From Labia minor (lineage: Eukaryota; Arthropoda; Insecta; Dermaptera; Spongiphoridae): DNA of 64,000 bases. The position numbers were made by a program, and so were the translations under genes. The notes below the pieces were generated by a model. It saw only the letters and a program-made list of their open reading frames with translations, made no database searches and was not told the origin of the DNA. How positions within the stretch are numbered: position 1 is the first letter of the stretch; each line of letters begins with the position of its first letter. Of the stretch, positions 16,480 to 60,840 are shown piece after piece. The stretch covers positions 59,743,461-59,807,460 of the forward strand of contig OY720348.1 in assembly GCA_963082975.1 (NCBI GenBank), in the 5' to 3' direction.

Positions 16480-17130
16480 ACTCAAATATCTTTCAAATAT
16501 ATCCTTAACAACATTCCCTCTTCCATCCTTTAAATAATATACTATAGTAGATTTTATTCAACACTATTTTATCTCTTGCTTAATTTCAAAATATTGTCCC
16601 AAGTGCGAATATTTCACCGTTTTTTTGAGAACATTCACATCAAAGTTTACAAAGAATCATTCCAATGATTACCAATCTTGGATAATGAAATCCTTATAAA
16701 CTTGAACTTATCATTTGATCTTTACTCAAATACCTTTGAGATACCTAGTAGATTTTATTCAACACTATTTCATCTCTTGGTTAATTTCAAAATATTGTCC
16801 CAGGTGCGAATATTTCACCGGTTTTTTTAGAAACATCCACATTAAAGTTTACAAAGAATCATCCAATGATTACCAATGTTGGATAACGAAATTCTTATGA
16901 ACTTGAACTATTATTTGATCTTTACTCAAATACCTTTCAAATATCCTTAACACAATTCTTCCATCTTTCTTGTAATGTACTATAGTATATTATTTCATCT
17001 CTTGGTTAATTTCAAAATATTGCCCCAAGTGCGAATATTTCACCGGTTTTTTTGGAAGCATCCACATTAAAGTTTACAAAGAATCATCCAATGATTACCA
17101 ATGTTGGATAACGAAATTCTTATGAACTTG
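16480..17130 (+). repeat. ~210-bp direct repeat, three tandem copies
   Basis: Three consecutive copies share TTACTCAAATACCTTTCAAA, TTTCAAAATATTG.CCCA, TGCGAATATTTCACCG and AAAGTTTACAAAGAATCAT. The last block recurs at about 16644, 16846 and 17071 (spacings about 202 and 225). A fourth copy lies at 17487-17850. Frames inside are short and not conserved between copies, so this is a non-coding tandem repeat. Confidence 0.8.
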
Positions 17131-22800: not shown

Positions 22801-23063
22801 CTCGATTTTATGTATGGATTCTACGTATGGGATGCAATTCATCGTTATTTAGTTTCTGCTATTCCCCGGTGACCTTATCTTTCTTTGGTTTATAAATGAT
22901 GAAAAGAAACCTATTTTATTAATTAATTTGAAATGTAATTATGTAGAAAATTGATTCCTTCGTAATTGTAAACTTCTTCTCTTTGAAGAATATATATTGT
23001 GTTATATTATACTTATAATTAACTGAAATTTATAATTTAATTGAGAAAATCGAATGATTTTTT
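22801..23063. other. A+T-rich spacer
   Basis: No feature recognised. Confidence 0.4.
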
Positions 23064-23667
23064 ACTATCTCGCCAGAGATAGTATTGCAATCACGAAAAT
23101 TTTCGATGTTGAGATTTTGATGTTTTTATACGTTTTGAAGGTTCCTGAATCATTTTCACTAAGGTTGAGAAAAATGTCTGTGTGTGTGTGTGTGTGTGTA
23201 TGTATGTAGACAAGATTACGCAAAAACGGTTTGAGCTAGAATGATGAAATTTGGTTCATGAGCATTATTCAAAATTCGTAGTTTTCTATCAACTTTTGAG
23301 AAATGTAGCTCAACCGGAAGAGGGTCATTACCTACAACGTTTTGATTTTTTTTCCTCTAAAGTGACCGTAAAAAGAAAGATATATGTTTGATAATTTTTC
23401 ACATGATTAATAATTGTATAAAACTGCTATATATAGAATTTCAGCTTGATTGATTCGCTGAAATTACCAGAATTAATTTTTTAACACTGCAAATCTCACG
23501 CGCCAACACGTGACGTGGTGCCATCAACAAAAAGCCAAACATGCGCTGGTTTAATATTTATTATTTATTATTTATTATTTATAATTAATTAAATTTAATT
23601 TAAATATAATATATTATGTTATTTAATCCAATTCAAATTGCGAGATAGTCGAGTGGAGACACTCCAG
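23064..23667 (+). mobile_element. Fam-A repeat, copy 2 (full length)
   Basis: Starts with the terminal hairpin ACTATCTCGCCAGAGATAGT and ends GAGTGGAGACACTCCAG. A (GT)n run occupies the usual place (about 23175-23203). It is most similar to copy 7 at 48842-49371, sharing the same TTTAATATTTATTATTTA segment. Confidence 0.88.
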
Positions 23668-23959
23668 CTAATTTTAATTTTGTAATAATATTGTATATAT
23701 AAGTTCTTACCTACATGCATTTTTAGTTGTTGAATCAGAAACAAAGTTAATTTTTTTTTATTGGATTGTATCAAATTACCAAACTTGTAGGCTTTCTAAT
23801 AAAATTGTAAACAGTATCCATTTAAAAAATAATCATTAAGTAGAATTGTTTGTAAACAAGTGGTCATGATTTTTCTTAATATATTATTATTTTAAATTGC
23901 CTTTGTCTTTCAAGTGGTCTTCTTTGATTTCACCTGCTCTACCATTTCTTTTTGGCAAG

Positions 23960-25439: not shown

Positions 25440-25970
25440 TGAAATAATTTTTAATCAGCTATTTTTTCACTCATTCAAGTCATTTGTATCATTTTTATAG
25501 AATTCATCATCATTTTCGCATTCTTATTTATATATTTCAATAATCCCTCTCGAATCTTTTTTTCATTTATATCAACCGTCTTTTTCTTGTAATTTATAAT
25601 ATACTTAAGTAATTTTTTTCTAATTTTCTTGCCCATTCAATCTCTACTTTTTAATTTCCATAATAATTATAATTTATTTAAATTTATTTTTATTAGATTA
25701 TTTGTATCAATCTTCCTTATCCTTCACTTAATTTAATTTACCGTTTACTATCCTTTCTTTACCATTTCAAACCACATTTCCCATCTATTCTTACTTTATT
25801 ATATTATCTTTAAACATCATATAATCAGTCAGCATTTATTAAATAAATATTTAAAAATATATTATTTACCAAAATATTGGATAATATGAATTATTCCTTA
25901 TATATACCAACATGTACTATAATGTTCAACTCAATAAGTTTAACTCGATTTATTTATTTAATTTTAAACC
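25440..25970 (+). repeat. Fam-P repeat, uninterrupted copy
   Basis: Contains ATCCTTTCTTTACCA, CCATCTATTCTTACTTTATT and AATATTGGATAATATGAATT in the same order as sequence at 32600-32690 and 35155-35360. In that second locus the 2.46-kb composite unit interrupts the series, so this copy represents the empty site. Confidence 0.6.
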
Positions 25971-28923: not shown

Positions 28924-30551
28924 TAGAATAATTAATTATATTTATTTTTAATAGTAAAATTCAAATAAAATTCAATCTTTATTTAAAATGTTTTTTATCA
29001 TTTATTATTAAATCATCTCCAAACGTTAGTAAAATTAGGAATATTCATTTTCCCCCAAAAAATTTAATACTTCAATTTTTAATATCTTTTTCTAATGTAC
29101 AAAGACTAAAAGTTTTTTTTTTGTTTTTTTTTATAAAAAGAAAAATAAATAAATAAATGAAAAAATAATCCCTTTCTCAAAACGAGTGTTGTTACGATTC
29201 TTGTAAAAATTCAAGCTAAATTTGATGAAAGATAATAAATGTTGATAAACAAAAAAAAAAAAAATAAAATAAAATAATTCCCCTCTCTCCTCTTTATTTT
29301 AAGCAAAAATCTTTGTCTCTACGATTTAATGACAAACATGTAATCAGCTAAAATCGCTTAAAATGGTTGCTTTTAGTGGGTATGAATTTGATTACTTTTC
29401 TTTCCCCCACTCCAACTATCTCATTTTTTTTTTACTCCTTATTTCTCTCTCTCCGAATAACAGTCACTAAAATAAATTGAAATTGAATTATTTGTCTAAA
29501 CCTTAAGATGATCGATTGTCGATTTCTTTAAAAATCGCAGTAAGAAAAACGAGGAATCCTATTCCGATTTACAGCCCGGCGGAGGCCCTAAAAAAAAAAA
29601 AAAAAAAAAAACACGAACACGGCGACCTGTTTCTTGCAAACTCCTCTGCATAAGAAACATACAAAATTTATAGATAGCCGAGCTTCATTTGTAACTTCCG
29701 AGTGGCCAAATGCCTTCGACTATAAACTCAAAAATAAAATAAATATTCCGCGAAACGGTTGTTTCTCCTCGTTCAAATGGCCTTCTTTTTGATTTATTTC
29801 CAAAACCCAGCCCCCCACCCCCATCACCCTTCCACCCTTTCACCCCTCATTTACTATTCAATGAAATCGTAATCAATAAATTCTAATAAAAAGAACCACG
29901 ATAATTAACTCTTTTGGCATATTCGATTTTTTTTTTCTTCTTTTCTTGTTCAAAGAATTCAAAAAGAATGTAAACTGAGAACGATTCATTTTTTGATAAA
30001 AAAACAAAAAAAAAACAAAAAAATAAAAACATGGAATGAGAGATCAATTTGGTGGATAATGTCAATGTTTATGATGTTTTAATTACGATGCTGATCTTAA
30101 TTGCGATGGAATCAATAGCCAGGCAGTTCCATTTGAATTTCCAATTAAAACGATCAATGAATAAAACACACGCCAAGCTCTTGAACTGTTTTTGAGGGAA
30201 AACAAAAAAAAAAATGAGTAAATAAAATAGAAGAAACAAGTCGTCATGTTCAAAATGATCTGAATGGTAAAGCCGATAAAAATATCTTGTGGATTAGAGA
30301 GTCCCACTTCAAATGGACCTTTATTTGGATTCCTCTTCACGTAAAGAGAGAAATTATCAAGTAATCATACTCGTCCAAGTGAACTTAACTCTCACCCGTC
30401 CCCCGTCCCCGATTCATTTTCCATTTTTTTCCCTTAGTTTCCTTCATTTTTTTTAACTTGGTATGTGTGTATGTATATACCTATGAATGTGTTTTGTTGC
30501 CTAATAAAATCAGATTTGTTTCATTTACTTATAATTTAATACACTTCTCCT
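28924..30551. other. long stretch with few recognisable repeats
   Basis: This is the longest part of the window in which I recognise no transposon. Bases 29480-29830 and 30083-30360 have ordinary complexity, a C-rich run near 29810-29850 and an A run near 29590. Frames at 29883-30065 and 30083-30340 are not convincingly protein-like. Conserved non-coding sequence is possible but cannot be shown from one genome. Confidence 0.35.
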
Positions 30552-31533
30552 TTTATTATACTAGCAAAAATTGTATGTATATATATGTGTATGTATATAT
30601 AGGAGTATATATATATATATATATTGTATATTGTTGGCTTATTTTATTAATTAACAGCTAGAAGGAATTTTTTGAAATTTACACCATAGATAATATTTAT
30701 AAATACAAATCGATCTTTATTAGTTTCAGCCTGGAGAAAAATCATATTCATTAGTTTTTTCTTAATTTAAATTTATATATGGATGACGTCACAAGTAACA
30801 TCCATATTGAATTTTGTCTCTTGCCAATTTTGTTTTTTTTTTAATTGATATTGTATTGATATTTTTTTTTGTATTTAAAATATTTTAAAATGTATTATTT
30901 AATTTCGAAATAAAATTAAAAATATTTGTTTTAATAAAATATATTTATTAATCTCTCATAAAAATAAACAAAGACGGCTTGGTTATTGTCTTGCAAACCT
31001 TTAAGTATTGTTATTTTTATTCTCTAAAATATTTGAGAGTAAGCCGCGGGGTTAAAGCAAAGTAAAGCCGACTCGAGTTCGAGGGATCGAAGCTCGCCGA
31101 GTTCATCGATATTTAAAAATAATAAAAAATGATAAAATGAAGATATATTCCAAAAAAAGGCAAATTTTTTAATATGTTTTGTAGTTAAATTTTTGGTTAA
31201 TTCTTATAAATTTTTATTAGTTAATTTTATTTTATGTTATTTTTTTAATCTATTTCCGTGTTTATTTTTTAATAAATTATTAATTTATATTTATTTATTC
31301 ATTGTTCTTTTATTAATTAATTTTTAGATAGTTTTATAATTTTTAATATTTTTTCACTAAAATATTATTTAATATTTATTAATATTATTATTTATTATTA
31401 TTGAGGACCCCAAATATCATTCATTTAATCAGATTAATGCAATGATGTAAGATTTTATAATTGTAATAAATAATTAAAAAATTGTATATCAATATTGATT
31501 AAAGGGTCGAGCGATAGCTCGGTGTTCCAGGTA
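30552..31533 (+). repeat. Fam-Q repeat, copy 1 (~980 bp)
   Basis: Starts TTATTATACTAGCAAAAATT and ends with the hairpin CGAGCGATAGCTCG followed by GTGTTCCAGGTA. It contains a perfect CRE palindrome (30784-30791), GTTTCAGCCTGGAGAAAAAT, and a tRNA-like patch at about 31040-31105 with GTTCGAGGGATCGAAGCTCG. Other copies are at 32691, 34907, 45476, 47692, 51958 and 60440. Confidence 0.6.
30784..30791. promoter_or_regulatory. CRE palindrome TGACGTCA in Fam-Q
   Basis: A perfect 8-bp CREB/ATF-type palindrome. Fam-Q relics elsewhere carry the same site (41810-41817, 41830-41837, 60649-60656). Function is inferred from the motif only. Confidence 0.4.
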
Positions 31534-32299
31534 AATAGAAATTTAAATATTATATTATATAAACAATCTTTCTATGGAAATTTAATTTTATATTCATTGT
31601 CCGAAATGGATCAATAAGGCGCTGAATGACAACATTTAGTACATATATCTAAAATTTTAAAAAATTAATTTCTGCGGTTATTGAATAGATATTGATATAA
31701 TATATAGTGTATATTCAAATAGAGGTATGTAAGAATATTGTCATGTAACTTCATAGATCGGTTATAGATAGAATTCTCTATTTTATATAAAAATGAAAAA
31801 TATACCTCAAATATTTAACATTTAAAACATTTTCTTTTTTTTTTTTTTTTGGTATGTATACTTATAACAAATTTAATTCTTTTAAAATAATTTACATTAA
31901 AATATGCAATTGAAAATCTTTATTAAAGAATAATTCAATGAAGATTTTTATATCTTGTTATAAGTATTTATTTATTAAAAATAAAATAAATTAGTAATTA
32001 TCGAGTTTATTCATATTTCTTGAAAGTAAGCTCATTTGCACTCAATCAAATAACAATAGAATATTTTTTTTTATTAATTATTTATTAATTATTCATTTTA
32101 TTTATTCAAATAATATCTCTTCCCCTTTCTCTCTCTCTCTCTCTCTCCCTCTCTTTATTTACGATCAATGGGACTGTGGCGTTAATGACATGAAAGCTAC
32201 GTTCTTAATTATAATGATTATAATAATTTAATTATTAATAATACTAATGCTCTTTTACTGGATTATTAATTGATTCCTACTTTAGGATATATTTCTCTG
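31534..32299. other. A+T-rich spacer with (CT)n run
   Basis: Includes a CT microsatellite near 32130-32156. Nothing coding is recognised. Confidence 0.4.
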
Positions 32300-32420
32300 T
32301 TACTATGGCGCTAGTAAATGCAAAAATTTATATTTTTAACACATTTCTCCAATCGTCCAAATCCTCTCTCTAAGCCACTTTGATTCAAATTCTACATTCT
32401 TTTTATTACTTCAAAGGTAA
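32300..32420 (-). pseudogene. LINE 3'-end relic
   Basis: Resembles, with heavy decay, the minus-strand LINE 3' end at 22590-22800 (TACTATGGC...ACATTTCTCCAA...TCTAAGCCAC in plus orientation). Too decayed to translate. Confidence 0.35.
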
Positions 32421-32459
32421 CTTTAAATGCTGAGTCCACTTTGACTTTTTCATTTACTA

Positions 32460-32690
32460 ATAGATTTTCCTGTAAACTTATCAATTAAATCAGTCATATT
32501 TGAGGATGTATAGAGATCATGTGAACCCACTATGATTTCAAATTTTTTCAGTTTTTAAATTGACTGCAATTTTTTTTTTATTTTATAAAATAATAATAAA
32601 TTCAATAAATAATTCAATTTATCGTTCGTCATCCTTTCTTTACCACTTCAATCCACATGTCCAGTCTATTCTTAATTCATTATATATTAT
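32460..32690 (+). repeat. Fam-P repeat, 5' part, interrupted
   Basis: Carries CATCCTTTCTTTACCACTTC and CAGTCTATTCTTAATTCATT, matching the uninterrupted copy at 25440-25970. The match breaks off at 32691 and resumes at 35155, the span of the 2.46-kb unit. A second overlapping piece (GAGGATGTATAGAGATCATG) occurs both at about 32500 and 35310. Confidence 0.6.
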
Positions 32691-33107
32691 ATCTTATCTT
32701 ATTATGCTAGCTAAAATTGTATATATCTATCTATCTATATATCATGGTTCTCAAAAACCGCTCTAACGATTTTTTTCAAATTCACACTAGATATAGTATT
32801 TATAAAGAAAAATTAAGTTTTATTGATGATATCTCTTGAAACATTCAGCTTCATTATTAATTTCTTAATTGAAAATTATATATGGAAAACGTCAAAATTG
32901 GCCTCCATTTTTATTTGTATTAATATTTTTTTTTATTTAAAATATTTTAAAATTTATTATTTAATTTCGAAATAAAATTAAAAATATTTATTTTTAATAA
33001 AATATATATAGATATTTATTAATCTCTCTCAAAAAAAAAAAATAAAATAAAAAACATCAAATCTGCCTGCTAAGACAGTAAAAAAATGACAATTTTTTAT
33101 CTAAATA

Positions 33108-33178
33108 TATATAGTCCAGCGGTTGGACTGATGTTTTAACGATTGGATTTCGTCGGTTCGAAACTCTCCGGGTGAATC
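33108..33178 (+). repeat. tRNA-like patch within Fam-Q
   Basis: TCCAGCGGTTGGACTGATG (A-box-like) and CGGTTCGAAACTCTCCGGG (B-box-like) stand about 30 bases apart, the layout of an internal Pol III promoter. The corresponding position in copy 30552-31533 has a diverged version. It suggests a SINE component in Fam-Q. Confidence 0.5.
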
Positions 33179-34271
33179 GTTATTTAAAAATGAAAATAAT
33201 GAATTTGTTATTTTTTTTCTTTTTATCTATTGTTTACATTTTAATAAATTACTATTTTATATTTATTTATTCATTGTTCTTTTATTAAATTTAATATTTA
33301 TTAATATTATTTATTATTAATTTATATATTGATGACATCACAAATGACATTTATATTGAAATTTGACTCCCGCCTTTTTTTAAAGAATATTTTATTAATA
33401 TTTATTTTATATTTAAAATATTTTAAAATTTTTTATTTAATTTCGAAATAAAATTAAAAATATATATTTTTTTTATATTTAAAATATTTTAAAATTTTTT
33501 ATTTAATTTCGAAATAAAATTAAAAATATATATTTTAATAATATTTTATAATTATAAATTACGATATATATTTATCAATAATAATGAATTTTTTTTTTTA
33601 ACTTAATTACAGAGCCGAGGCTCGGGGTCCCGGTATGATCTTAATATATTGTGAGAATTAGATAAATAATGTAGAGAGAAAAAAATATTTAAAAATAGAT
33701 ATTTATTTAAATGAAATAAAATTATTTAATTTACAGAATGAAAATGTCTATAATAATGTCTAAACATTTTTTCTTTATAATTTTACATTATATATAATAC
33801 TAATTACAGTAGTTATAATATATGGGGAATTTTCAACTTTGACTGCCGATTTGACCATGTTCCCAAACGAATTTTAAAAAAACCAAGACCACTTTACATT
33901 TACACATTTTAAGCTCTAATCGAATCCAAAATCAAAATTTAAAAAATCGAAAAACAAACTCACAGATATATAGATTTTATAAATGAACATTTATACAATT
34001 TATTTTAATTAATTTGAAACATTTTAGGAAACAAATTTTTAATGGGTCATTTTTAGAAATCCCATTTAACAATTATAATAAATAATTAAAAAATTGTAAA
34101 ATTTTTAAAGTATATAAAAATAAATTGTATAAATTGGTTAAAGGGTCGAGTGATAGTTCGGTGTCCCAGGTATATATTTTATATTAACACGCCTACTTTT
34201 CTATATAATAAAGATATAAAGAATCATATTTTAATTTTTATATAACCAAGAAATCATTTTTTCACTTAAAA

Positions 34272-34383
34272 TATAGTTGTAAAGCCCAAATCTCCGATCC
34301 ATATAACATCATCGACTGGGCCGCTACCAAAAGGAGTCTTCTCTTGCTCTGACTAGGGCCACCGGTATTTGCCATTAGTCTCG
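34272..34383 (-). pseudogene. LINE (R1-like) RT fragment inside the composite unit
   Basis: On the minus strand the frame reads RLMANTGGPSQSKRRLLLVA then AQSMMLYGSEIWALQL. The NTGGP...RRLL...LYGSEIW pattern is that of the segment just after the RT core in R1/Loa-type LINEs. Only about 37 codons remain. The second composite unit carries the same fragment. Confidence 0.65.
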
Positions 34384-35154
34384 AAAAAATAATATTAAAT
34401 TTTATATAAATTTATAAATTAGAATATTTGAATTTGTTTAAATTTTAACACATGTAATCAATCATATGCATAAAGAATAGAAAATTTTGAAAATCAACTT
34501 GGTATTAAATTCAGAAAAAAAAAATACTCATATATAGAATATATAGACTATTCGAATATAATTGAAACTCTTTCTCTCCCTCTATTTTAAATTTGAAAAA
34601 ACGGAGTGTTAAGAAATTAAGATTCCTTATACAACATGGATGGTTAAATGAATTGGGCTCCCTACCTCCCTGAGAAATTCACATTAAAAATGTTTATAAT
34701 ATTTTAGTTTATTAAATCAAACTATTATTTTTTTATTTCAATATTTTTAATGTTAATACAATAATTTTTATTTTATAATCTATAAAATAATTTAATTATT
34801 TTTAAAAACAACGGTCTTCAATTACAATTTTTTTACTCTCTACTGACTGTTCATTTCATAACTGAAAATAGTGTCGAATAGAAATAGACGATATTACTTG
34901 GATTAATCTTATTATGCTAGCTAAAATTGTTTGTTTGTATTATTGAGGACCCCAGTTCAATTCATTTTAATCAGATTGATGCAATGATGCAACATTTAAT
35001 AATTGTAATAAATAATTAATTGTAGATTAATATTTTTTAAAGGGTCGAGCGACAGCTCGGTGTCCCAGGTATTAATATTACCAGCCAAACCCAATAATAA
35101 TGAATCATTTTTTTTTAACTTAAGTACCGAGCCGAGGCTCGGGGTCCCGGTACT

Positions 35155-35360
35155 TATATTTAAACCTCATACAATCCGTTCACATTTATTAAATATATTA
35201 TTTTCAAAAATATTGGATAATATGAATTATTGCTTATATATACCAACTACATGTACTATAATGTTCAATTCAATGAGTTAAAGTAGATTTATTTATTTAA
35301 TTTTATTTGAGGATGTATAGAGATCATGCGATTCCACTATGATTTCAATTTTTCCAGTCT
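35155..35360 (+). repeat. Fam-P repeat, 3' part
   Basis: Resumes Fam-P with AATATTGGATAATATGAATT and CATGTACTATAATGTTCAA, as in 25860-25940, directly after the composite unit. Confidence 0.6.
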
Positions 35361-45022: not shown

Positions 45023-45062
45023 AAATTATTATACTAGCAAAAATTGTATATATATATATATA
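45023..45062 (+). repeat. Fam-Q start fragment with (TA)n
   Basis: ATTATACTAGCAAAAATTGT followed by TA repeats: only the first bases of Fam-Q, directly upstream of the palindromic element. Confidence 0.5.
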
Positions 45063-45077
45063 TATATTATTATCATA

Positions 45078-45470
45078 TTTATCAGGGATATAATCATTTT
45101 TTCGAAGATTTTTTTTCTCGACGTTTCGGCACCCATTTTGGCGCCAAATTCAAGGTGGGAATATTTTTAGGATTCTGGGTCTTAGTCTGGACAACAGCCC
45201 CAGGCGGCCTCGGGCTGTTGTACAGTGCGGACGTGTGCCAGTCTCAGAATTGCCCTGGATTCTTCGGAGCTCTGCAGCAACGCAGTGACTAAAAAACCAC
45301 CCAACCTATCAATCTATAATCCCGATATTAACCCTTGGTCACACAGACTAAGACCCAGAATTCCAAAAATATTCCCACATAAATAATCTTTTAAAAATGG
45401 CGCCAAAATGGGTGCCGAGACGTCGAGAAAACAATCTCACAAAAATACGTGATTATATCCCTGATAAATC
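45078..45470. mobile_element. palindromic Penelope-like element
   Basis: The two ends are inverted copies over more than 100 bp (TTTATCAGGGATATAATCA outermost, then CTCGACGTTTCGGCACCCAT, TTTTGGCGCCA, GGTGGGAATATTTTTAG and TTCTGGGTCTTAGTCTG). The arms, read outward, contain GGCGCCAAAATGGGTGCC followed by GAAACGTCGAG, a sequence type known from the terminal repeats of Penelope-like elements, which carry hammerhead ribozymes. The unique centre (about 45185-45320) encodes a GC-rich frame ending CQSQNCPGFFGALQQRSD and a 10-bp-stem hairpin. The class assignment is inference. Confidence 0.5.
45194..45224. repeat. perfect hairpin, 10-bp stem
   Basis: ACAACAGCCC and GGGCTGTTGT flank an 11-base GC-rich loop. 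It sits in the centre of the palindromic element. Confidence 0.7.
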
Positions 45471-45475
45471 TCATA

Positions 45476-47939
45476 ATCTTATCTTATTATGCTAGCTAAA
45501 ATTGTATATATCTATCTATCTATATATCATGGTTCTCAAAAACCGCTCTAACGATTTTTTTCAAATTCACACTAGATATAGTATTTATAAAGAAAAATTA
45601 AGTTTTATTGATGATATCTCTTGAAACATTCAGCTTCATTATTAATTTCTTAATTGAAAATTATATATGGAAAACGTCAAAATTGGCCTCCATTTTTATT
45701 TGTATTAATATTTTTTTTTATTTAAAATATTTTAAAATTTATTATTTAATTTCGAAATAAAATTAAAAATATTTATTTTTAATAAAATATATATAGATAT
45801 TTATTAATCTCTCTCAAAAAAAAAAAAATAAAATAAAAAACATCAAATCTGCCTGCTAAGACAGTAAAAAAATGACAATTTTTTATCTAAATACATATAG
45901 TCCAGCGGTTGGACTGATGTTTTAACGATTGGATTTCGTCGGTTCGAAACTCTCCGGGTGAATCGTTATTTAAAAATGAAAATAATGAATTTGTTATTTT
46001 TTTTCTTTTTATCTATTGTTTACATTTTAATAAATTACTATTTTAAATTTATTTATTCATTGTTCTTTTATTAAATTTAATATTTATTAATATTATTTAT
46101 TATTAATTTATATATTGATGACATCACAAATGACATTTATATTGAAATTTGACTCCCGCCTTTTTTTAAAGAATATTGTATTAATATTTTTTTTATATTT
46201 AAAATATTTTAAAATTTTTTATTTAATTTCGAAATAAAATTAAAAATATATATTTTTTTTATATTTAAAATATTTTAAAATTTTTTATTTAATTTCGAAA
46301 TAAAATTAAAAATATATATTTTAATAATATTTTATAATTATAAATTACGATATATATTTATCAATAATAATGAATTTTTTTTTTTTAACTTAATTACAGA
46401 GCCGAGGCTCGGGGTCCCGGTATGATCTTAATATATTGTGAGAATTAGATAAATAATGTAGAGAGAAAAAAATATTTAAAAATAGATATTTATTTAAATG
46501 AAATAAAATTATTTAATTTACAGAATGAAAATGTCTATAATAATGTCTAAACATTTTTTCTTTATAATTTTACATTATAATAATACTAATTACAGTAGTT
46601 ATAATATATGGGGAATTTTCAACTTTGACTGCCGATTTGACCATGTTCCCAAACGAATTTTAAAAAAACCAAGACCACTTTACATTTACACATTTTAAGC
46701 TCTAATCGAATCCAAAATCAAAATTTAAAAAATCGAAAAACAAACTCACAGATATATAGATTTTATAAATGAACATTTATACAATTTATTTTAATTAATT
46801 TGAAACATTTTAGGAAACAAATTTTTAATGGGTCATTTTTAGAAATCCCATTTAACAATTATAATAAATAATTAAAAAATTGTAAAATTTTTAAAGTATA
46901 TAAAAATAAATTGTATAAATTGGTTAAAGGGTCGAGTGATAGTTCGGTGTCCCAGGTATATATTTTATATTAACACGCCTACTTTTCTGTATAATAAAGA
47001 TATAAAGAATCATATTTTAATTTTTATATAACCAAGAAATCATTTTTTCACTTAAAATATAGTTGTAAAGCCCAAATCTCCGATCCATATAACATCATCG
47101 ACTGGGCCGCTACCAAAAGGAGTCTTCTCTTGCTCTGACTAGGGCCACCGGTATTTGCCATTAGTCTCGAAAAAATAATATTAAATTTTATATAAATTTA
47201 TAAATTAGAATATTTGAATTTGTTTAAATTTTAACACATGTAATCAATCATATGCATAAAGAATAGAAAATTTTGAAAATCAACTTGGTATTAAATTCAG
47301 AAAAAAAAAATACTCATATATAGAATATATAGACTAATCGAATATAATTGAAACTCTTTCTCTCCCTCTATTTTAAATTTGAAAAAACGGAGTGTTAAGA
47401 AATTAAGATTCCTTATACAACATGGATGGTTAAATGAATTGGGCTCCCTACCTCCCTGAGAAATTCACATTAAAAATGTTTATAATATTTTAGTTTATTA
47501 AATCAAACTATTATTTTTTTATTTCAATATTTTTAATGTTAATACAATAATTTTTATTTTATAATCTATAAAATAATTTAATTATTTTTAAAAACAACGG
47601 TCTTCAATTACAATTTTTTTACTCTCTACTGACTGTTCATTTCATAACTGAAAATAGTGTCGAATAGAAATAGACGATATTACTTGGATTAATCTTATTA
47701 TGCTAGCTAAAATTGTTTGTTTGTATTATTGAGGACCCCAGTTCAATTCATTTTAATTAGATTGATGCAATGATGCAACATTTAATAATTGTAATAAATA
47801 ATTAATTGTAGATTAATATTTTTTAAAGGGTCGAGCGACAGCTCGGTGTCCCAGGTATTAATATTACCAGCCAAACCCAATAATAATGAATCATTTTTTT
47901 TAACTTAAGTACCGAGCCGAGGCTCGGGGTCCCGGTACT
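45476..47939 (+). mobile_element. 2.46-kb composite repeat unit, copy 2
   Basis: Matches 32691-35154 at a constant offset of about 12785 bases, with only around a dozen substitutions and small indels seen by eye (for example TATATATAG versus TACATATAG). Boundaries are the same in both copies and the flanks differ: here a palindromic element on the left and (AAT)n plus (AT)n on the right. It contains the same internal Fam-Q copies (45476-46425, 47692-47939), tRNA-like patch and LINE RT fragment. Confidence 0.8.
47057..47169 (-). pseudogene. LINE (R1-like) RT fragment, second copy
   Basis: Same frame as at 34272-34383 (TGGPSQSKRRLLLVAAQSMM, LYGSEIW), carried along in the duplicated unit. Confidence 0.65.
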
Positions 47940-47987
47940 AATAATAATAATAACATTCACGGAAATCTAAACTAATGTATATATACC

Positions 47988-48018
<31 letters not shown>

Positions 48019-48039
48019 GTATATACATATGTATATATA

Positions 48040-48230
48040 TTTGTAATTTTGATATATTAAACCGCTCTAAGGATTTTTTGAAATTTTTATAAAGAAAAAT
48101 AGATCTGTATTGGTTTCAGCCTTGGGAAAAATCATCTTTGTTAGTTTTTTCTTCAGTTAAAATAGGAATTTTAATAATAAAAAAATGGCACCGGGCAACG
48201 CTGGACAGGGCTTCCTTAAATACAAAATAT
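48040..48230 (+). repeat. Fam-Q partial copy
   Basis: Has TTAAACCGCTCTAAGGATTT, GTTTCAGCCTTGGGAAAAAT and GGCACCGGGCAACGCTGGAC. An AT microsatellite (about 47990-48040) precedes it. Confidence 0.55.
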
Positions 48231-48841
48231 AAGAAATAATGCCTTTAAGTATTATTCTGAAATTTGTTATGAATTTTAGAATAGAAAAATCAATCTTAAT
48301 ACATATGTTTTATTTTTTATTTTTTTTTTTAGTTTTGTTTTCATTATTCAAAAAATATCAAATACAATATATATATATAATGTTGTTTGATAATTAATTT
48401 ATTTCAAATGGTCGATAGGTCTCATTTTTTTTTACAACTTGGTAACCAATAGAACAAGTAAGTTATACTTGATATAATTACTTCGATCCTGCCTTAAAAT
48501 TTCCAAACTCTTCATGTAAAAATTCATAAAGAGAAAAAACAATTGACAAGCAATTCGTCAGAAGTAATTTTTTTTAAAATATCAGACAAGTTTAAGATAA
48601 TTTAAATAAACAATGATTAAAAAAATGAAATCAGACAGAAGAAGTTCTTAATTATGTTAAATTATTTACAAAATGTTTCGTTAGTGTTTAATAATAGCAT
48701 ATTATACTAACAAAAATCTTATTAACTATAGCTCAGTTTGAAAATGGTTTCGGGTATTATACTGAAATTTATTAGAAATTGGAGAGTTTTAAAATTGAAT
48801 ATATATAAAATCGATCTTAATAAGTTATATTTTTTACTATC
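48231..48841 (+). other. A+T-rich spacer; Fam-S copy at 48375-48440
   Basis: Contains ATTAATTTATTTCAAATGGT followed by CGATAGGTCTCATTT (Fam-S, diverged). Nothing else recognised. Confidence 0.4.

Positions 48842-51922: not shown

Positions 51923-51927
<5 letters not shown>
51256..51927. mobile_element. TIR element with ACACGGT repeats (672 bp)
   Basis: Inverted ends TACACCTAATTCTGTTTATA and, complemented, TACACCCAATTCTATTTTTA, each followed by CACGGT, in TA-rich flanks. ACCGTGTAAA recurs just inside both ends. Ends of this kind suggest a pogo/Tigger-type or other TA-inserting DNA transposon; that is inference. The interior is non-coding. Confidence 0.7.
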
Positions 51928-51957
<30 letters not shown>

Positions 51958-51961
<4 letters not shown>

Positions 51962-52425
51962 TTTTTGAAATATTAAATTGCTCTAAGGATTTTTTTGAAA
52001 TTCACACCATATATAATTTTTATAAAGAAGAATCAATCTGAATTCAGCCTCGGGAAAAATCATCTTTGTTACTTTTTTCTTAATTTAAAATAGGAATTTT
52101 AATAATAAATAAATTACACCGGGTAACGTCGTACAATGCTTCCTTAAATACAAAATATTATAAATAAAATAAAATTATAAATATTTATTTTAATAATATT
52201 TTTTAATTAAATTACATAATATATATTATGTTATATCCACAGGCCATACTTTTCTGTCTTCCGGTGCATTAATACGTAAGTTTAAGGGCTGTAAATTTTA
52301 TGACTATTTTTTTTTAATTATTTGAACGGCGGTAAACCAGGTAATAATATTACCAGTTAAACCCGATAATAAGGAATATTTTTCTTTAATCACCGAGCGG
52401 CTGCTATGTGAATCAGGTAATGTAT
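51958..52425 (+). repeat. Fam-Q copy, diverged
   Basis: Has TTGAAATATTAAATTGCTCT, CAGCCTCGGGAAAAATCATC and ACACCGGGTAACGTCGTACA. It ends in two variants of the family end (CGGTAAACCAGGTAATAATA, then CACCGAGCGGCTGC...AATCAGGTA). An (AT)n run of about 37 bases precedes it. Confidence 0.5.
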
Positions 52426-55020: not shown

Positions 55021-55262
55021 AGAAATGTTTAAGAGCCTAGCCGAAAACGTTTTACCTTCTTTTTTAGAACCAAATTGAAAAAATTTAGAAAAAAAGGCGG
55101 AAATGTTTAAGAGCCTAGTCCAAAAACGTTTTACCTTTTTTTAGAACCAAATTGAAAAAATTTAGAAAAAAAGGCGGAAATGTTTAAGAGCCTAGTCCGA
55201 AAACGTTTTACCTTTTTTTAGAAACCAAATTGAAAAAATTTAGAAAAAAAAGTCGGAAATGT
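55021..55262 (+). repeat. 79-bp tandem repeat, three units
   Basis: Each unit carries GAAATGTTTAAGAGCCTAG, GAAAACGTTTTACCTT and AGAACCAAATTGAAAAAATT. The unit is the hAT subterminal module seen in reverse at 13540-13615, so the array is an expansion inside a hAT-like end. Confidence 0.85.
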
Positions 55263-55331
55263 CTTAAATGTTTGATGAGCACCTAAAAACGGGACAAACC
55301 CGGAAAACCGGGACGTTTGGTCACCCTAATT
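55263..55331. mobile_element. transposon terminus (GGGTGACCAAACGTCCCGG)
   Basis: After the last tandem unit the sequence ends GGGACAAACCCGGAAAACCG then GGGACGTTTGGTCACCC. Its complement starts GGGTGACCAAACGTCCCGG, the form of a DNA-transposon (hAT-type) end. The opposite end was not found. Confidence 0.5.
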
Positions 55332-55680: not shown

Positions 55681-55839
55681 AATTTTCACAAACCCAAACT
55701 AATTAATAAATTTATATTCAGCGTTTTTTAAATGAATAAAATATTTTTATATATGTCCATATAAAATGGAATTATTCATTCATTTCATTTGTACTTTAAT
55801 GAACTCTCCTATATACCTACATTTTGTTTCATAAAAATT

Positions 55840-56540
55840 CTACATCAAATATTTTCAAAAATTTATATACTCATAAACACAATCCGTTATAAACATGATT
55901 CACTACAGGTTTCAGCCAAATCATTACTTTGAAAAGTAAAAATGATTTTCTACAATTCTACATCGAATATTTTCACAAATATACTCATAGACAAAATAAG
56001 TTATAAGCATGATTCACTACAGATTCCATCCAAATCATTAACTTAAAAAATTAAAATGATTTTCTACAATTCTACAACGAATATTTTCATAAATTTTTAT
56101 ACTCATAGACACAATCAGTTATAAACATGATTCACTACAGGTTTCATCCAAATCATTACTTTGAAAAGTAAAAATGATTTTCTACAATTCTACATAGAAT
56201 ATTTTCACAAATTTATATACTCATAGACAAAATAAGTTATAAGCATGATTCACTACAGATTCCATCCAAATCATTAACTTAAAAAAATAAAATGATTTTC
56301 TACAATACTACAACGAATATTTTCATAAATTTTTATACTCATAGACACAATCCGTTATAAGCATGATTCACTACAGGTTTCATCCAAATCATTACTTTGA
56401 AAAGTAAAAATGATTTTCTACAATTCTACATCGAATATTTTCATAAATTTTTATACTCCATAGACACAATCAGTTATAAACATGATTCACTACAGGTTCC
56501 ATCCAAATCACTAACTTGAAAAGTAAAAATGATTTTATCT
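55840..56540 (+). repeat. 118-bp satellite with alternating unit types
   Basis: GATTCACTACAG recurs at about 55897, 56011, 56129, 56247, 56365 and 56484 (spacing 114-119). Units alternate between a type with ACAGGTTTCATCC/ACTTTGAAAAGTAAAA and a type with ACAGATTCCATCC/AACTTAAAAAATTAAA, giving a ~236-bp higher-order period in the middle of the array. Non-coding. Confidence 0.88.
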
Positions 56541-60439: not shown

Positions 60440-60840
60440 AGTACCTGGTTCACCGAGCCGCCATCCAAATAATTTAAACGAACATAAATTAAAAAAAATA
60501 GTCATAAAACATACAACTCTTAAACGTACTTATTAATGCACTGAAAGAGAGATAAGTATGTCCTGTTGATATAACATAATATATATTTCGTAATATGATT
60601 TAATATAATATATTTTGTATTTACGGAAGCGCTGTCTGACGTAGTTAATGACGTCATTTAAATTTAATATTTTATATTTTAAATTAAGAAAAAAAACTAA
60701 TGAAGTTGATTTTTCCCCAGGCTGAAACTAATACAGATCGATTTTTCTTTATTAAAATTATCTAAAAAAATTTTAGAACGGTTTAATATTTCAAAAATAG
60801 AAATATATATACAATTTTTGCTATAATAATAAGATAAGAT
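60440..60840 (-). repeat. Fam-Q copy, minus orientation
   Basis: Complement starts ATCTTATCTTATTATTATAG then CAAAAATTGTATATAT. It includes ATTAGTTTCAGCCTGGGGAA, a CRE palindrome (60649-60656), and ends CGGCTCGGTGAACCAGGTAC. The start shared with the composite unit (ATCTTATCTTATTAT) supports that as the true family start. Confidence 0.65.

Follow-up and report, generated by a model that had tools for sequence, protein, structure and literature searches.

A composite Helitron variant present in roughly 700 copies in the Labia minor genome

How does a 2.46-kb stretch of DNA with similar ends come to stand at two places between different neighbours, and what moved it? Two such copies lie in the window, the stretch of 64,000 nucleotides analysed here (C10:59743461–59807460; the genome has 604 Mb in 71 contigs). 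The copies at 32691–35158 and 45476–47943 are identical at 2458 of 2470 aligned positions (~99.5%, with 4 gap positions), are spaced 12.8 kb apart and have flanks unlike each other, in agreement with the first-pass annotation, which had described two ~99% identical copies in different surroundings. Boundaries read off 30 genome copies (see below) are refined by one base. Copy 1 (TC...GGTAC) spans 32692–35153 (+ strand, 2462 bp) between a host A at 32691 and a host T at 35154, and copy 2 spans 45477–47938 (+) between a host A at 45476 and a host T at 47939.

The unit is a composite in which cargo of 1.27 kb separates a first element (Q1; 0.94 kb) from a second one (Q2; 0.25 kb). Q1 (32692–33635, +) carries the outer 5′ end, a 66-bp minisatellite (33398–33536) and a 3′ terminus of its own (33603–33635, +). 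The hairpin of this inner terminus is partly kept and its outer stem is broken; cargo, with no host flank, comes next. Q2 (34907–35153, +, 247 bp) has an A before its TC start and a double terminus at its 3′ side. Hairpin A (type A) lies at 35047–35071 (+), and hairpin B, set in an AGTACC/GGTAC(T) stem, lies ~80 bp beyond it at the element end (outer 3′ terminus, 35120–35153, +), the final T of the stem being the host base. The double terminus is not peculiar to the composite: an older relative in the window (E3) and a 3′ region of the candidate partner described below (L065) share the layout. The first-pass annotation had placed a copy of one repeat at each end of the unit. The ends are indeed common to both, but 34907–35153 is not a full second copy of 32692–33635.

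The cargo (33636–34906, +) is either captured DNA or the interior of an older member, and an older 3′ terminus of type A from this family lies within it (34148–34172, +). It also contains a 49-codon open stretch (34262–34411, −), which we take, by eye, to resemble an R1 LINE. The proposal that this is an R1-like reverse-transcriptase fragment finds no backing: the piece has no Pfam match, a single irrelevant PDB match (E 0.9) and no genuine similarity to the reverse-transcriptase frame found elsewhere in the window, a LINE remnant at 783–1568 (PF00078, E 1.3e-10). No tRNA genes are found in the window by ARAGORN, and Rfam gives no match over the whole window at the gathering threshold. At E ≤ 10, two microRNA models match an AT repeat in the region 30500–35300, within another older relative (E1), by chance. 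Between the two 3′ hairpins lies TAATATTAC, the geminivirus nick-site nonamer, at window positions 35073, 47859 and 52345, and it is present in L065 too. Its recurrence looks like descent, since three occurrences in the window are not many for AT-rich DNA, and we read no function into it.

The unit is far more abundant than the two copies of the first-pass annotation suggest. The best 40 of 3885 candidates in a DNA search are all essentially full length (query 1 to 2462–2468) and lie on seven contigs. We fetched 30 of these 40 for comparison of ends, flanks and folds. Lengths are ~2.47 kb in 23 and ~2.41 kb in seven, and the ~63 bp that separate the two classes are consistent with a single repeat of the Q1 minisatellite. 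Substitution divergence from window copy 1 is 0 (L007) to 0.77%, indicating recent movement. Exact motifs, counted on both strands with reversed-pattern controls that gave 0 in every case, occur at 717 places (352 + 365) for the Q1/cargo junction, 684 (340 + 344) for a cargo 30-mer, 989 (470 + 519) for the cargo/Q2 junction, 7158 (3483 + 3675) for the 5′ motif, 5824 (2884 + 2940) for the 3′ motif and 3669 (1819 + 1850) for the outer terminus with the following T; these are lower bounds, because only exact motifs count. The composite family thus has roughly 700 copies, judging by the Q1/cargo junction.

The spacing of the motifs reveals the make-up of the wider family. In the first 73.4 Mb of C1, a Q1/cargo junction lies 686–699 bp upstream of 77 of 86 cargo matches on the same strand and is missing from nine, and 23 of 100 Q1/cargo junctions there lack the exact cargo 30-mer. 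The first 5.6 Mb of C1 contain 100 5′ motifs and 79 3′ motifs, many of them solitary, together with 12 plain 5′/3′ pairs 1553–1569 bp apart and eight clusters ordered 5′-3′-5′-3′. In these clusters the last pair is 217–228 bp apart, and the inner 3′ motif lies 1292–1315 bp from the second 5′ motif in seven and 2308 bp in one. Since the cargo/Q2 junction is commoner than the Q1/cargo junction, a different upstream part seems to precede cargo and Q2 in some members. Pattern scans of viral and genome contig collections returned no member of the family; three GC-rich contigs from one scan share nothing past the short motif. The family was not recognised in the open-licence papers searched.

Could a single locus simply have been duplicated, as a segment or in the assembly? 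The proximity of the two window copies and their 99.5% identity would fit, and some local duplication does occur, since copies L006 and L008 have a 114-bp left flank in common. Against it, the full-length candidates (40 of 40 scored) share both boundaries and are spread over seven contigs, and homology halts at those boundaries in 30 of 30 fetched copies, so the family does not represent a segmental duplication. Within 150 bp on each side of the 30 copies, only L006/L008 share most of the left flank and only L020/L023 share the right flank, where both enter another family member; L006/L023 have a 44-bp left-flank stretch in common at a different offset, and the other pairs show no flank match. 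At the level of the whole family, duplication is thereby refuted, and we give it practically no weight. L006 and L008 (C6:8302562 and C6:8326165) lie 23.6 kb apart, with the left flank in common and the right flank not.

All 30 fetched copies have an A before the TC start and a T after the 3′ end, which reads GGTAC in 28 and GGTA in two (L020 and L024). No other flanking position is fixed among them. By base composition, the chance of A and T at 30 of 30 copies is ~5e-27, if the copies are independent. When the flanks of each copy were joined and used as queries, 8 of 30 gave matches spanning the join. For window copy 1 (L004), the joined flanks align to the 25750–25860 area of an uninterrupted relative of its Fam-P target (25440–25970, +). 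The join itself is gap-free, although a gap of 7 bases opens seven bases to the left of it, where the sequence is AT-rich, and the proposal that copy 1 was inserted into a Fam-P repeat is thus borne out. L019, compared with two relatives, has no gap at the join either and is the cleanest empty site; its host is one of many copies of a 600-bp interspersed repeat that also recurs in the window (e.g., 23060–23705). Extra bases appear in the alignments of L009 (5) and L010 (2), and that of L007 is too heavily gapped to read. The remaining three are uninformative: L020 and L027 match only themselves, and L023 matches itself and family sequence. The element inserts between A and T, without target duplication at the clean sites. 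A TTAT duplication considered for copy 1 is unneeded once the true ends are known.

Retrotransposition of a SINE, LINE or Penelope-type element with repeated ends has in its favour the repetition of end-like sequence within the unit and a tRNA-like stretch near 33115–33180, seen by eye only. The constant 5′ start, the constant 3′ end without a tail, the A|T sites unduplicated at clean empty sites and a Rep/helicase partner (see below) largely refute this explanation, and we regard it as highly improbable.

Instead, the element is a Helitron variant by its mode of insertion and its enzyme, with a non-canonical 3′ tetranucleotide. Helitrons, as portrayed in parts of PMC4778049 and PMC6544945, start with TC, insert between A and T without duplication and have a hairpin near the 3′ end. 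The 5′ TC is found in 30 of 30 composites and in 40 of 40 partner segments scored, and the A|T site is found at 30 of 30 insertions. The 3′ hairpin, typically about 10–12 nt before the end, is present at 11–13 nt, depending on the fold. A partner with the same ends encodes Rep and a PIF1-type helicase. The 3′ CTRR is missing; its place is taken by GTAC in 28 of 30 copies and GGTA in two. The lack of terminal inverted repeats and target duplication is accounted for by the Helitron-like nature of the element. The first-pass view of the unit was correct in that it is non-autonomous, mobile, carries along DNA from its neighbourhood and lacks both features.

Helentrons and HINEs (Helitron2) form a rolling-circle class that inserts at TT, has 11–15 bp subterminal inverted repeats and relies on an endonuclease-bearing partner. 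According to portions of PMC4067079, they, including DINE-1, resemble the present family in their 3′ hairpin or palindrome, microsatellites or other internal tandem repeats in the body, tandem copies and abundant non-autonomous copies. Their own hallmarks are absent here: the target is A|T, not TT, in 30 of 30 copies; the best inverted match is 6–8 bp, equalled by 36–162 of 200 shuffles; and none of the eight Pfam families in the 1652-aa partner frame is an endonuclease. A reading as Helentron/HINE, suggested by the window alone, did not survive the inverted-repeat test and the finding of A|T sites. This assignment is largely refuted, and we consider it very unlikely.

Three older relatives of the family lie elsewhere in the window. 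E1 (30552–31533, +) has a 5′ end and a type-A 3′ terminus, E2 (60441–60839, −) is a 399-bp solo relative of the form A|TC...GGTAC|T, and E3 (51926–52420, +) has the double 3′ terminus and a decayed 5′ end. The 5′ end of a further older relative (45025–45066, +) lies upstream of copy 2, and its remainder resumes at 47975–48239. A 410-bp fold-back element (45067–45477) with imperfect inverted arms (45069–45189 and 45344–45477) adjoins copy 2, and both seem to lie inside this relative. The window also contains tandem repeats at 55836–56536, 55022–55267 and 16536–16949, with units of 118, 77 and 201 bp, respectively.

A likely mobilising partner, intact-looking in sequence, is present in the same genome, and it supplies the autonomous relative that the first-pass annotation suggested looking for. 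The Helitron_like_N domain (PF14214) has 104 matches in the genome. Seven loci (L040–L046) are 99.9–100% identical over 3.56 kb and have an open frame of 1651–1652 aa in six and 1537 aa in one. The 1652-aa frame contains PF14214, PIF1, Pif1_2B, a weak match to a G2P-type Rep and STPR repeats. No termini are seen at 30 PF14214 loci with ~1.5-kb flanks, and we compared four 3′ regions farther out. L065 and L068 show 99.9% identity as far as GGTAC, where their sequences diverge, with T next in each, and the last 137 bp of the composite match the 3′ end of L065 at 95.7%. The L070 stretch ends short of the terminus, and L069, the expected end of the C10 copy, has no match to L065. On the other side, all 37 matches of at least 865 bases to the upstream region start at query base 1 (best 40 of 3800 candidates). 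A 579-bp 5′ segment that starts A|TCTTATCTTATTATG, first met beside composite L030, matches at 100% from the A before TC in 40 of 40 (best 40 of 1029 candidates). It adjoins the upstream region at C9:45501514, C10:14921033 and C5:81093072, and the frame follows at each. Both ends are present at C9:45501515–45511118, giving an element of ~9.6 kb by contiguous coordinates rather than base by base. This Rep/helicase element has the same 5′ and 3′ ends as the composite, and therefore it is the likely partner.

Two further observations concern the Rep/helicase frame. Its STPR repeats (L065:514–5469; PF21107, E 1.4e-18) are of a kind known from the silkworm factor FMBP-1, and a search of open-licence papers for Helitron and STPR together found none. 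Decayed PF14214 matches at C5:46739897–46792979, spaced ~9.8 and 5.7 kb, resemble a Rep/helicase tandem array.

The inner and outer terminators differ in their predicted folds (DNA parameters). In 28 of 30 copies, the hairpin of the outer terminus sits within the AGTACC/GGTAC(T) stem (−7.5 to −9.6 kcal/mol); in L020 and L024 it forms without that stem (−6.4 kcal/mol). All 30 copies carry an identical inner terminus; its outer stem is lost, and its fold has an energy of −2.9 kcal/mol. This inner terminus occurs at 298 + 317 exact places in the genome; it leads straight into cargo in 80 of 80 cases where both lists are complete, and none is seen as an element end. Because the 30 copies share one founder, this indicates an inert terminator, not repeated loss. 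In addition, L020 and L024 end at GGTA without the stem in their present form, so the outer stem is not plainly indispensable. For Helraiser, PMC4778049 reports that ~11.7% of events carried downstream DNA with the hairpin present and at least 36% did so after its deletion.

The composite is most probably a non-autonomous Helitron that is driven by the partner, bypasses the damaged Q1 terminator and stops at Q2 (probability about 0.83, tempered by L020, L024 and L069). The transposase of the related 9.6-kb Helitron would nick the start of Q1 at A|TC, and one strand would be peeled off and copied from there. With its outer stem broken, the Q1 terminator would be bypassed, and copying would cross the 1.27 kb of neighbouring DNA and halt at the intact Q2 terminator (GGTAC|T). 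The product, at times circular or head-to-tail, would insert between A and T and leave the target unduplicated. We infer mobilisation by this particular partner from the common ends; the broken stem may be what causes the bypass, and the founding locus would have gone through these events in the sequence given here.

Head-to-tail joints fit such a rolling-circle route through Q1 to Q2. An exact pattern that allows up to 6 bases from GGTA to TCTTATTATG matches 131 joints (59 + 72; control, 0), and joints with intervening host bases fall outside this count. Among 100 joints listed, 87 show letters, of which 76 have GGTAC joined to TCT..., 10 read GGTA|TCTTAT and one reads GGTACTTAATCT. The GGTAC–TCT joints would not be expected from insertion beside an existing element, because the host A is absent at the joint; A|T insertion beside an existing element could be the origin of the GGTA|TCTTAT joints. 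Helraiser circles carry the same type of exact joint, as parts of PMC5876387 describe. Neighbouring joints lie 852, 1592 (twice), 2438 and 6097–6098 bp apart, as in tandem arrays. Three joints at C6:22507075–22519305, 6097–6098 bp apart, mark a tandem array of a 6.1-kb member, and no PF14214 match is listed near this array.

The main rival concerns the origin of the cargo and could in part go together with the movement described above. Q2 may first have inserted inside a longer, older Helitron of its own kind, whose interior became the cargo, so that little or no host DNA was captured. The old family terminus within the cargo (34148–34172) and the excess of cargo/Q2 over Q1/cargo junctions (989 vs 717) favour this origin, and parts of PMC5148889 provide a precedent in FoHeli, for which nested composites are proposed. 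Against it, the cargo starts right after a Q1 terminus reaching GGTA, the expected place of the host flank, and does so exactly at 717 places. We consider a nested origin less likely than not, and retain end bypass into neighbouring DNA as the preferred reading.

End bypass and circles have already been published, as parts of PMC4778049 and PMC5876387 document. Helraiser/Helibat resembles the present family in its TC start, A|T target, lack of duplication, 3′ hairpin and Rep/PIF1-helicase partner, as well as in its exact head-to-tail joints and an end bypass that carries downstream DNA. The present family differs in GTAC instead of CTRR, in two 3′ hairpins ~80 bp apart and in a fixed composite of ~700 copies. 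FoHeli of Fusarium oxysporum (PMC5148889) likewise has several same-family termini in one mobile unit, but it is Helitron2-like and combines several 5′ termini with one 3′ terminus. Unlike FoHeli, the composite here has two 5′ ends, four 3′ termini and A|T sites. End bypass and composite Helitrons are known. A good new case is provided by a composite that has become fixed in hundreds of copies, with its likely partner in the same genome.

One-ended composite transposition is a feature of IS91/ISCR-like elements. We tentatively suggest, at somewhat less than even odds, that the composite is a eukaryotic counterpart of this process, a stable cargo cassette that arose through a single lesion. Once the upstream Helitron terminator had lost its outer stem, chance end bypass may have become obligatory, so that two Helitrons with fixed cargo came to act as one element and reached ~700 copies, with the double hairpin serving as a two-stage stop.

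How Helitrons capture and fix foreign DNA is still argued, with end bypass, filler DNA and nesting as the contenders. Here, one genome contains a terminator that was passed, a terminator that stops, hundreds of near-identical products, the joints and a candidate partner. Therefore, the end-bypass model becomes testable on natural terminators that differ at few stem positions.
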